Shown here piece after piece: positions 28,661 through 31,998 of a DNA stretch of 32,000 bases (the stretch's first letter is position 1; each line of letters begins with the position of its first letter). Source of the stretch: Sedimenticola sp. (GTDB taxonomy: Bacteria; Pseudomonadota; Gammaproteobacteria; Chromatiales; Chromatiaceae); NCBI GenBank assembly GCA_026989135.1, contig JALSJZ010000020.1, positions 1 to 32,000 on the forward strand, given 5' to 3'. Made by a program: the position numbers and the translations under genes. A model generated the notes under the pieces. The model saw nothing but the letters and a program-made list of their open reading frames with translations. It searched no databases and was not told where the DNA came from.

Positions 28661-30100
28661 ATGCAATTTGAAGCGTCCAATCTGATACCGGTTGCTCCAG
28701 AGCTCTATGTTCTCGGTTTAGCCTGCCTCGTTCTCGTGATTGATCTTTTCCTAGACGATGAACAACGCATCTTCACCTATGCGCTTACCCAGGTCGGCCT
28801 GATCTTTGCCATATTTATTACCCTGAGTGTTGGGCAGACAGAAGCGCAGATTGTATTTGATGGGAGCTATATCCGGGACGGGATGAGTGATGTGCTTAAG
28901 GTCTCCATCTACATTGTCACAATAGGTGCCTTCCTTTATTCCAAAGAGTATCTCGTTGAGCACGGCCTGTTTAAAGGCGAATACTATGTCTTGGGGCTGT
29001 TTGCCGTTTTGGGTATGATGGTAATGGTCTCGGCACAGAGCTTTCTTACTGCCTACCTTGGCCTTGAGCTATTATCCTTATCACTTTATGCGCTTGTTGC
29101 TTTTGATCGGGATTCAAAAGCCGGCTCAGAAGCTGCTATGAAATATTTCGTTCTGGGCGCCATTGCATCCGGCATGCTGCTTTACGGGATTTCAATGATT
29201 TATGGCGCAACGGGCGCACTGAATTTCACAACGGTTACCACAGCGCTGACTGAAGCCGGAATGGAAGATATAGTCCTTGTTTTTGGCCTGGTGTTTGTTG
29301 TTATCGGCTTGGCATTTAAGCTGGGCGCTGTTCCTTTTCACATGTGGATACCCGATGTGTATCACGGTGCTCCAACGCCTGTGGCTCAGTTTTTGAGCAG
29401 TGCGCCAAAAATTGCGGCTTTTGCATTGGCTATGAGGCTGCTGGTAGATGGCATGATGCCTCTCCACTCGGACTGGCAGCAGATGCTGATAATCCTGGCG
29501 ATCCTCTCAATGGTGCTGGGCAATGTCATTGCAATTGCCCAGACCAATATCAAGCGAATGCTCGCCTACTCAACCATTGCTCACGTTGGTTTTATAATGA
29601 TGGGTATTCTGGCTGGAACCCCAGAGGGGTATTCTGCTTCAATGTTTTACACCATTATCTATGCAGTCACCTCACTGGGTGCATTTGGAATTATCATCTT
29701 GCTCAGCAGAAAAGGATTTGAGGCTGAAAATTTGGATGATTACAAAGGACTCCACGAGCGTAGCCCATGGTTTGCAGCAATGATGATGTTGTTTATGTTC
29801 TCCATGGCCGGGGTTCCTCCTACCGTCGGTTTTTGGGCAAAGCTCTTTGTTTTGGATGCGGTGGTGGGTGTTGAGCTGACATGGCTTGCGCTGGTGGGCG
29901 TCTTCTTCTCCATCATCGGTGCTTTCTACTATATCCGTATCATAAAGCTTATGTATTTTGATAAAGCGGATAACACATTGCCCGTGGTAGGCAACCTCGA
30001 TGCTCGTATCGTGCTCTCAGTGAATGGGGTTTTGATGCTTGCTCTTGGGCTGTTCCCGGCAGTTCTTCTGACAATTTGTGTCAGAGCAATAGGGGGCTAA
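28661..30100 (+). CDS. nuoN: NADH-quinone oxidoreductase subunit N (antiporter-like)
   Basis: The 479-residue antiporter-like pump subunit is the last gene of the operon. Signatures are YLGLELLSLSLYALVAF (conserved Glu around 134), KLGAVPFHMWIPDVYHGAPT (conserved Lys near 217) and IKRMLAYSTIAHVGFIMMG. The C-terminus LFPAVLLTICVRAIGG is a normal family ending, so the protein looks intact. A small perfect hairpin, CTGACA with TGTCAG (30068-30084), lies inside the coding end without a T-run. An inverted-repeat-bounded element begins only eight bases after the stop and may have displaced the native operon terminator. Confidence 0.97.
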   Translation: MQFEASNLIPVAPELYVLGLACLVLVIDLFLDDEQRIFTYALTQVGLIFAIFITLSVGQTEAQIVFDGSYIRDGMSDVLKVSIYIVTIGAFLYSKEYLVEHGLFKGEYYVLGLFAVLGMMVMVSAQSFLTAYLGLELLSLSLYALVAFDRDSKAGSEAAMKYFVLGAIASGMLLYGISMIYGATGALNFTTVTTALTEAGMEDIVLVFGLVFVVIGLAFKLGAVPFHMWIPDVYHGAPTPVAQFLSSAPKIAAFALAMRLLVDGMMPLHSDWQQMLIILAILSMVLGNVIAIAQTNIKRMLAYSTIAHVGFIMMGILAGTPEGYSASMFYTIIYAVTSLGAFGIIILLSRKGFEAENLDDYKGLHERSPWFAAMMMLFMFSMAGVPPTVGFWAKLFVLDAVVGVELTWLALVGVFFSIIGAFYYIRIIKLMYFDKADNTLPVVGNLDARIVLSVNGVLMLALGLFPAVLLTICVRAIGG

Positions 30101-30108
30101 AATATTCT

Positions 30109-30130
30109 GGGTCTATGCCATATTGAGTGG
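30109..30130 (+). repeat. Left terminal inverted repeat
   Basis: It reads GGGTCTATGCCATAT, then T, then GAGTGG. It matches the reverse complement of 30603-30624 except at the sixteenth base. It begins eight bases after the nuoN stop. Confidence 0.85.
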
Positions 30131-30200
30131 GGAATACAGCCGTTTTTCATAGACACGGAGACCACTGATAACACAGGGCTATCGTTTGTAACATTTAATA

Positions 30201-30238
30201 CCTAAATCCAGCAAGCACGATCACTTGCGGGATTTAGG
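30201..30238. repeat. Long inverted repeat (hairpin) downstream of nuoN, at the end of the GxxExxY relic
   Basis: CCTAAATCC (30201-30209) pairs with GGATTTAGG (30230-30238). After one mismatched pair, GCAAG (30211-30215) pairs with CTTGC (30224-30228) around an eight-base loop CACGATCA. TTTC follows on the plus strand, so it might serve as a weak terminator for nuo. The minus-strand GxxExxY frame ends inside it, which suggests the hairpin replaced the gene's 3' end. Confidence 0.7.
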
Positions 30239-30492
30239 TTTCAACTGATTTAAGTTCTAGAATTAGACATTCATCCACCAGAAAATCAAGCCTGTAGCCA
30301 CATTCAAGCTTAATATTCTTGTACTGTATCGGAATTGGCGCTTGAACAATTAAAAGGTATATCCTTCATGCTTAGTTCATAAGCCAAACATTTCTCATAG
30401 GTGTTTTCTAACAATACAGCACCCAACGCATGATGCACCTCAATAGCACAGCCTATCACAGGTTCTGACAGCTCCTTACTACACTCTTTCAT
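30234..30492 (-). pseudogene. GxxExxY-family (PD-(D/E)XK nuclease-like) gene, frameshifted and truncated
   Basis: From ATG at 30490-30492 the first frame gives LSEPVIGCAIEVHHALG and LLENTYEKCLAYELSMKDIPF, the recognisable N-terminus of GxxExxY proteins. At about 30348 one extra base (or two missing) shifts the frame. The homologous reading then continues as VQAPIPIQYKNIKLECGYR and LDFLVDECLILELKSVE to a stop at 30234-30236. The second part retains the nuclease-like Asp and the ExK of ELK. The naming motif is also altered, since the first Gly is Val (V26-L-L-E-N-T-Y). About 35-40 C-terminal residues usual in the family are missing, cut at the hairpin. The gene is therefore dead. Its cellular role is not established in the family. 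Two degenerate 9-base units (ACCGCGGAG and CCAACAGAG) abut the start codon. Confidence 0.8.
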
Positions 30493-30531
30493 GCTCTGTT
30501 GGCCTCCGCGGTCTCGGCAATTGCTCCTGCA

Positions 30532-30557
30532 TCGCCTAAAGCGCCTACTTCTGGTGC
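30532..30557 (-). repeat. 26-bp dispersed repeat, copy B
   Basis: On the minus strand it reads GCACCAG, then the shared core AAGTAGGCGCTTTAGGCGA without its first base overlap. It matches 12545-12570 at 25 of 26 positions. It lies about 40 bases upstream of the GxxExxY start codon. It abuts a palindrome, GGTGCT-CT-AGCACC at 30553-30566. Confidence 0.85.
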
Positions 30558-30602
30558 TCTAGCACCTATATCCATATAGGCGTCTGTGTCTATTCATTAT
30601 AA

Positions 30603-30624
30603 CCACTCGATATGGCATAGACCC
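30603..30624 (-). repeat. Right terminal inverted repeat
   Basis: On the minus strand it reads GGGTCTATGCCATAT, then C, then GAGTGG, pairing with the left repeat at 21 of 22 bases. It ends 24 bases before the stop codon of the lipoprotein gene. Confidence 0.85.
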
Positions 30625-30648
30625 GATTAATCTAGGTTCCAGGGTCGG

Positions 30649-31014
30649 CTATTTATGCAGCCGTTCGTAACGCAGTTTCTGATTATCGGTATTGAGCGTG
30701 AGAGTGGCGCTATAGCGGCCGCTCAGTTTTGTTGAATAACTGTACTCACTGTCGTTTTTTGTCCATTGGTTCAGGTCAATCTGATCCTTGAAGGAGGCAA
30801 AGCCCTCTTTTGAAAACTCGATAACAACCGCCTCCAGGTAATCATCCATGGCTCTGGCGTTATAGCTTTTCAAGATGGTGAACTCACTGGGGCAGTCAAT
30901 GTTCAAAGCCTGGTTGATGAGTGTTCTGACCTCCGCCTTGTCTGGGGAAAAGCCGCAGGCAGTGAGAAAAATGACAATGACCAATAAGAGATGTTTTCGC
31001 ATGTTATACCGCAT
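30649..31014 (-). CDS. Small predicted lipoprotein, function unknown
   Basis: The protein is about 121 residues from ATG at 31012-31014, with MRYNMRK as a positive n-region, LLLVIVIFL as hydrophobic core and the lipobox LTAC (Cys at about 20). This predicts cleavage by signal peptidase II and membrane anchoring. The mature part has no recognised domain. It ends with beta-like Ser/Thr-rich sequence (SYSTKLSGRYSATLTLN) that could be a small beta-rich fold. The start one base after the stop of the upstream gene suggests coupling. ATG at 31000-31002 is an equally plausible start, while the longer frame to 31059 overlaps the neighbour and puts 19 non-signal residues ahead of the signal peptide. 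I do not recognise the family. Confidence 0.75.
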   Translation of the reverse strand: MRYNMRKHLLLVIVIFLTACGFSPDKAEVRTLINQALNIDCPSEFTILKSYNARAMDDYLEAVVIEFSKEGFASFKDQIDLNQWTKNDSEYSYSTKLSGRYSATLTLNTDNQKLRYERLHK

Positions 31015-31835: not shown

Positions 31836-31998
31836 AGGAGCCTGTCCGAGAATAGAAACCACAGTGAGGAAAAGCTGGATTTGGCCAGATTCTTCCATTA
31901 TTTTCGTTAAATATGTCCAATATTCGCCTCAAATAATGAAAAAATCTAACTCAAACCAGCATCCCCTCACCATGATTTCTATTCTCAGACAGGCTCCT
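31836..31998. mobile_element. MITE-like element with 34-bp terminal inverted repeats
   Basis: The arms 31836-31869 and 31965-31998 match as inverted repeats at 30 of 34 positions and share AGGAGCCTGTC and GAGAATAGAAA. The 95-base interior is AT-rich and has no credible gene, so it cannot encode a transposase. The right end is flanked by CTAG and the left by the one-off CCAG. If these are the target duplication, the true termini begin GAGCC, which would suit an IS5-family target of the YTAR kind. Family assignment is tentative. It sits immediately upstream of the hypothetical gene at 31804 and may have removed or supplied its promoter. Confidence 0.7.

Follow-up and report, generated by a model that had tools for sequence, protein, structure and literature searches.

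A GxxExxY gene relic in a very probable ISL3-family cassette downstream of nuoN, and the inverted arrays around GxxExxY genes in bacteria

The closest described systems to the one considered here are the REPtrons and TIRtrons. TIRtrons are RAYT-like genes set in long terminal inverted repeats (TIRs) that also form repeat families, and they are known from several phyla, including Acidobacteria and Planctomycetes (PMC3733652, in part). For the CGTC repeats, that source leaves open how REP-like repeats arise and spread without a RAYT. Another parallel is offered by the intervening sequences of 23S rRNA that carry the S23 protein (Coxiella type), where a small ORF also sits in a selfish-looking insert (PMC4990558, in part); the protein is a different one, however, and the GxxExxY modules examined here lie between protein genes. 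The widespread small-nuclease family GxxExxY (TIGR04256, PF13366) is mentioned in PMC8934634 (in part), and no role for it was found in the literature searched. Nor did searches of open-licence PMC literature find a text that links GxxExxY, or the array strings described below, to repeats; most subscription journals and bioRxiv lie outside that scope, and absence from print is therefore not established.

The unit downstream of nuoN and its GxxExxY relic

The window, that is, the whole stretch of 32,000 nucleotides that was analysed, contains nuoN with its stop at 30100, and 8 bp farther on begins a unit bounded by inverted arms of 22 nt each, at 30109-30130 on the plus strand and 30603-30624 on the minus strand, which are complementary at 21 of 22 positions. 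The preliminary description had reported these ends, a second inverted ATAGACAC just inside them and a decayed GxxExxY gene between them. The ends are borne out and belong to a multicopy family confined to the genus, and the gene is confirmed by a 60-aa ORF (30310-30492, minus strand) that scores above the cut-off for both PF13366 (41.9 bits; cut-off 22) and TIGR04256 (40.4 bits; cut-off 35). The inner ATAGACAC pair (30149-30156 and 30586-30593) is likewise present, but it is not a second cassette terminus: it forms the outer edge of a decayed inverted array that flanked the GxxExxY gene. An Rfam search of 29900-30900 gave no match up to an E value of 1, and a plasmid DNA search with the unit as query found none. 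In its own genome (G000) the unit has 108 DNA matches. Many of these represent further units that share its ends, and others are copies of a second short palindrome, situated at 30201-30238.

The course of decay can be followed by comparison with the best-preserved copy in a sister species, G002. This comparison, together with the profile match, places residues 1-43 of the relic at 30352-30480 on the minus strand, with the start codon region at 30490-30492. After residue 43 the frame changes, residues 43-80 being found at 30240-30353 and the last residues, 115-121, at 30182-30202, both on the minus strand. Some 34 codons between residues 80 and 115 were lost at the foreign palindrome that now replaces them (30201-30238), an internally deleted copy of a second MITE with ends CCTAAATCCTGCAAG. 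Ten full copies of this MITE family, 163 bp long, lie elsewhere in G000 (L395-L404), each with a 5-bp TNNNA duplication. On the 3' side of the relic a decayed inner array, ATAGACACGGAGACCACTGATAACACAGGG (30149-30178, plus strand), is of the kind seen at other GxxExxY genes. The array on the 5' side (30493-30593, minus strand) is split by an insert that recurs in copies on contigs C186, C11 and C87, and is uninterrupted in the G002 copy L090.

It had been proposed that complete GxxExxY genes be sought within the same ends, and such genes are indeed found in G002, where five of ten closed end pairs enclose long GxxExxY frames (97-124 codons from stop to stop) between CACRGAG arrays. The nearly intact copy, L090, has a 114-aa frame starting with GTG, which matches PF13366 at 136.6 bits, and its ends are surrounded by a perfect 8-bp duplication, CAATAAAT; the array abuts the gene, with GACACAGAGACCACAGGGGCCACAGAG before the gene and the opposite array past the stop. 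The search for an empty site after nuoN had a mixed outcome. The unit is missing from this place in G002, but the site is not clean: some 200 bp of unrelated sequence separate nuoN there from the downstream gene shared with the window genome.

Two long GxxExxY genes exist elsewhere in G000, and neither has the 22-bp ends. One (L041, on contig C148) lies between inverted arrays of CATGAAG units; its flanks are conserved without the gene in G001, where they are about 130 bp apart and the intervening 1,062 bases of the G000 query have no counterpart. The other (L042, on contig 151) has arrays of CACAGAT units, and was ruled out as an intact gene since its GxxExxY frame is split by a copy of a third MITE-like element. 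This element, with inverted ends GGAGGCTGTCCGAGAATAG, is found at 31837-31997 of the window and at L042:1797-1957 (both about 160 bp), as well as at L145:560-782.

Inverted arrays and the GxxExxY protein

The arrays that flank GxxExxY genes are inverted and built of units of about 9 bp (CACRGAG). Eighty loci were drawn from a species collection including Planctomycetota, Bacteroidota, Chloroflexota, Pseudomonadota, Verrucomicrobiota and Acidobacteriota, and five were dropped for short flanks. A flank score of at least 18 was reached at 52 of the remaining 75 GxxExxY loci, versus 10 of 387 neighbouring ORFs. Cross pairs also score high (at least 18 in 739 of 5,550), because the array unit itself is common to the phyla. 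An earlier sample consisted of L041 and 30 loci taken from different phyla; one of the 31 was dropped, and the mean flank score of the 30 usable loci was 21.2, versus 14.0 in 120 cross pairs. Array pairs of 400-630 bp nearly all enclose a GxxExxY frame, L182 excepted, and the other array pairs, of 56-235 bp, have no gene inside, in a sample of these and additional array-bearing loci that was mostly chosen by the gene. An array, a GxxExxY gene and an opposite array are the usual packaging of GxxExxY genes in bacteria; this is held with high confidence, jointly with the assignment of the window unit to the ISL3 family discussed below.

The type of array goes with the type of protein. Typing required at least 3 units, and after removal of loci with short flanks, short matches or identical genes, 123 distinct loci were left. 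Proteins of the GYRID type have AG arrays at 94 of these loci and AT arrays at none, and proteins of the FLEKVYENA-or-like type have AT arrays at 8 (6 GEY and 2 GDY) and AG arrays at none; one truncated gene has an AG array and 20 loci are without array by the threshold. (One locus labelled GEY, L250, reads GYRID in its frame; it has no array, so that the AG/AT counts are unaffected.) In a tree of 121 proteins, 18 of them labelled 'none' for array, all 8 AT rows fall within an 11-row clade on a 99/98 branch that holds no AG row. Family f72 and Thioalkalivibrio each contain both array types, and the GEY-type gene L042 of G000 carries CACAGAT arrays, showing that the array follows the protein and not the host. 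The AG/AT split is a single deep branch, and it therefore represents one evolutionary contrast only.

The protein itself was modelled with AlphaFold2 on 40 aligned relatives (pLDDT 96.3). The model is a confident one and PD-(D/E)XK-like; among solved folds, the Cas4-like SSO0001 and those of the lambda-exonuclease type come nearest, with a best E value of 1.2e-3; a PDB sequence search with the GxxExxY profile returned no relative. The candidate catalytic motif D...ExK consists of D67 and E77, invariant in the 40 sequences, and of K79, conserved in at least 90% of them. By its predicted catalytic residues and predicted fold, GxxExxY is a member of the PD-(D/E)XK nuclease superfamily. The gene of L180, a Stieleria locus, matches PF13366 at 145 bits.

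GxxExxY was found in none of 50,697 phages and on 8 of 72,556 plasmids; being rare on the latter and absent from the phages searched, it gives no sign of a conjugative vehicle. Viral contigs contributed six distant loci, four of which (L259, L260, L261 and L263) have no array; of the other two, L258 was apparently counted as AG and L262 apparently dropped as a duplicate. Among the plasmid loci, no good AG array was found at L455, L457, L458, L459 and L461. A single inverted CACGGAT unit is present at L457, on a Treponema plasmid, and CGCGGAT units lie downstream at L459, both weakly AT-like. At L455, on a Fusobacteria plasmid, the gene is flanked by direct repeats (AGATTTAATCCGTGTACCTAT) of about 21 bp, not by inverted arrays. 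The plasmid genes L393, L455, L456 and L460 have neighbours on either side that run in one direction, such as fabD and fabG in the case of Sphingomonas parapaucimobilis.

Gene-less palindromes and a possible REPIN-like model

Arrays are also found away from the gene. Of 32 genomes that bear the gene, 28 contain the strict pattern ACCACRRAG-CRCRRAG-CRCRRAG, with up to 89 copies, and its reversed control gave 1 match in total. In one Acidobacteria genome, 20 close pairs were fetched, and all 20 proved to be palindromes of 66-95 bp without a gene, hairpin-shaped, with differing loops and mostly bounded by TTC and GA. The array-gene-array modules and these gene-less palindromes, taken together, resemble REPIN/RAYT, but with a PD-(D/E)XK nuclease. 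As in REPIN/RAYT and TIRtron systems, short inverted pairs are dispersed of the same repeat that flanks a chromosomal gene. There are two further likenesses: in one genus, Thioalkalivibrio, the copy number goes with the gene, a link that is weaker in family f72 and has exceptions in G244 and G534, and GxxExxY is rare on plasmids and phages, as RAYTs are. Unlike in REPIN/RAYT, the associated gene encodes a PF13366 PD-(D/E)XK protein and not a Y1 HUH tyrosine transposase, the repeats are arrays of units of about 9 bp with no GTAG tag in the consensus, and one genome (G524) has a RAYT-REP pair of its own in addition to the array system.

One possible model, advanced tentatively, assumes that a second class of REPIN-like elements, independent of HUH enzymes and distributed across phyla, has GxxExxY proteins as its enzymes, and that an ISL3 transposase has hijacked one such module and multiplied it, giving rise to the window unit. 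The PD-(D/E)XK protein would recognise its inverted arrays, between which its gene would be kept packaged. A single chromosomal nuclease gene would maintain, spread or rewrite the gene-less palindromes, in a movement step that we infer, and the array type (CRCRRAG or CRCRGAT) would co-evolve with the protein clade. If the arrays are the substrate of GxxExxY, a large class of so far unnamed palindromic repeats gains an enzyme, and it becomes directly testable how REP-like repeats without a RAYT arise and spread.

A link between arrays and gene is seen as co-occurrence. Among 398 Pseudomonadota genomes, which are related to one another, 41 have both gene and array, 24 the gene only, 20 the array only and 313 neither. 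The corresponding counts are 38, 7, 17 and 12 in one rich family and 3, 17, 3 and 301 outside it; within family f72 gene and array are weakly associated (p 0.016). In Thioalkalivibrio, both flanks of one intergenic site are present in 15 of 30 genomes. Seven sites are filled with array-GxxExxY-array or a variant of it (G512, G528, G526, G546, G532, G523 and G524), and these genomes have 41, 40, 150, 7, 19, 48 and 150 array matches, respectively; the other eight sites hold only 20-97 bp, and their genomes have 1, 3 and six times 0 matches. Over all 30 genomes, 9 gene-bearing versus 21 without the gene, the Mann-Whitney p is 0.001. Two Thioalkalivibrio genomes, G519 and G520, carry the gene at another place, with CACGGAT arrays that are invisible to the strict pattern. 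At the filled sites the two arms are alike in type; some strains have CACAGAG, and others have either CACGAAG or a GGAAG type derived from it. Array matches are also found in two genomes where no TIGR04256 gene was detected (84 in G244 and 51 in G534); their enzyme may have been lost, may have diverged or may be a different one.

The arrays and palindromes could instead be host features (terminators, RNA hairpins or nucleoid sites), in which GxxExxY genes are located by chance. This explanation, which we consider unlikely, draws on the hairpin shape of the palindromes and on their behaviour at orthologous sites, where different strains have palindromes of different motif and empty sites are not seen. 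Indeed, for ten syntenic gene-less clusters of G524 and G526, the relatives G531 and G518 provided no clean empty site. In the gene-less G531 the ten sites are occupied by 157-1,045 bp of other sequence, which at several of them includes a worn, diverged palindrome of another motif, with ACAGGAAG-like units. The lack of clean empty sites counts against a simple insertion of palindromes; they may be rewritten in place instead of being inserted, or they may be old. A chance location in host features is hard to reconcile with arrays that hug the gene in a fixed orientation (550 AG units near the gene in the expected orientation versus 123 in the other), with an array type that changes with the protein clade, and with the near disappearance of arrays from Thioalkalivibrio genomes whose orthologous site is without the gene.

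A somewhat less probable alternative assigns the arrays to a RAYT/TIRYT (HUH tyrosine) transposase as its repeats, the GxxExxY genes being mere passengers between them. The range of phyla given above for TIRtrons is in keeping with it, as are the genomes with many arrays and no detected GxxExxY. It was confronted with G524, a Thioalkalivibrio genome with 150 arrays, of which 1.04 Mb (about 38% of the genome), containing 88 two-unit arrays in 35 clusters, was scanned by motif. The sole Y1_Tnp gene found there has its own, classical-looking REP and no array within 500 bp, which speaks against the HUH explanation and also demonstrates that a RAYT-REP pair, if present, is detected by the method. 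The 1.45 Mb of fetched sequence, a sample biased to the surroundings of GxxExxY, contains 339 arrays, and scanning it by motif revealed no convincing RAYT beside an array. That the GxxExxY clade predicts the array type also argues against passengers, and the tentative model with GxxExxY as the enzyme remains the preferred one.

The ISL3 family and the probable movement of the window unit

With up to 3 mismatches allowed, the 22-bp end is present 37 times in the window genome and 53 times in the sister species G002. It is found in five of the six genomes of the genus (the remaining three having 2, 8 and 1) and in none of 86 other relatives outside the genus; a reversed control gave 0 matches in the five end-bearing genomes and 1 in one other genome. 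From 60 stretches fetched from the genus genomes, together with the window, 28 closed pairs of ends were obtained. One of them is a complete ISL3-family insertion sequence of 1,291 bp on contig 7 of G002 (L079:1563-2853), both ends of which are identical to the window left end at 22 of 22 positions, and whose transposase of 422 aa matches NF033550 at 319 bits and PF01610 at 236 bits. The remaining 27 pairs span 99-558 bp. Perfect 8-bp target duplications surround 14 of the 28 pairs, and target duplications of 8 bp are typical of the ISL3 family.

The identity of the ends with those of a complete ISL3 element, together with the duplications at half of the closed pairs, leads to the conclusion, in which we have strong confidence jointly with that on the array-gene-array cargo, that the window unit is a non-autonomous ISL3-family cassette (a MITE or mobile insertion cassette) carrying a GxxExxY module. 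To describe the unit as a small mobile cassette was thus correct. Its ends are common to an element that encodes an ISL3 transposase, and in the 510-bp unit L090 the ends of an insertion sequence surround a passenger gene and no transposase, as in a mobile insertion cassette or tIS. The non-autonomous derivatives of ISL3 elements (MITE, mobile insertion cassette, tIS) likewise share the ends of the complete element, have 8-bp duplications and a passenger, and lack an internal transposase; the window unit differs from them in that its passenger is a GxxExxY module and its duplication has been lost, the flanking 8 bases agreeing at 2 of 8 positions. A search of G000 itself gave no match to the ISL3 transposase. 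Judging from the ends, the transposase that survives in G002 within the same 22-bp ends would be the mover of the unit, generating the 8-bp duplications, and the unit would have eroded in the window genome after its insertion. An ordinary ISL3 transposase would then be able to multiply a nuclease module as a passenger.

A stronger reading would have the ends define a new class of nuclease-carrying element, with GxxExxY itself as its transposase; five of the ten G002 pairs enclose long GxxExxY frames and three of these five have 8-bp duplications, but this idea is largely refuted, and very improbable, because the identical ends enclose a complete ISL3 transposase, perfect duplications surround many units without a GxxExxY frame, many units of the TIR family bear no trace of GxxExxY, so that the ends do not mark a GxxExxY element, and both long GxxExxY genes of G000 lack them.

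Two further units with these ends were observed. L146:560-703, on contig 95 of G000, is a TIR-bounded unit of 144 bp with a perfect 8-bp duplication; its interior, a pair of CATGAAG arrays, matches the GxxExxY locus L041, so that these 22-bp ends have captured another module, distinct from the first. In G004, the TIR pair at L096:1264-1775 has a perfect duplication and contains no GxxExxY frame, its interior showing GGGGGAAGG inverted tracts.
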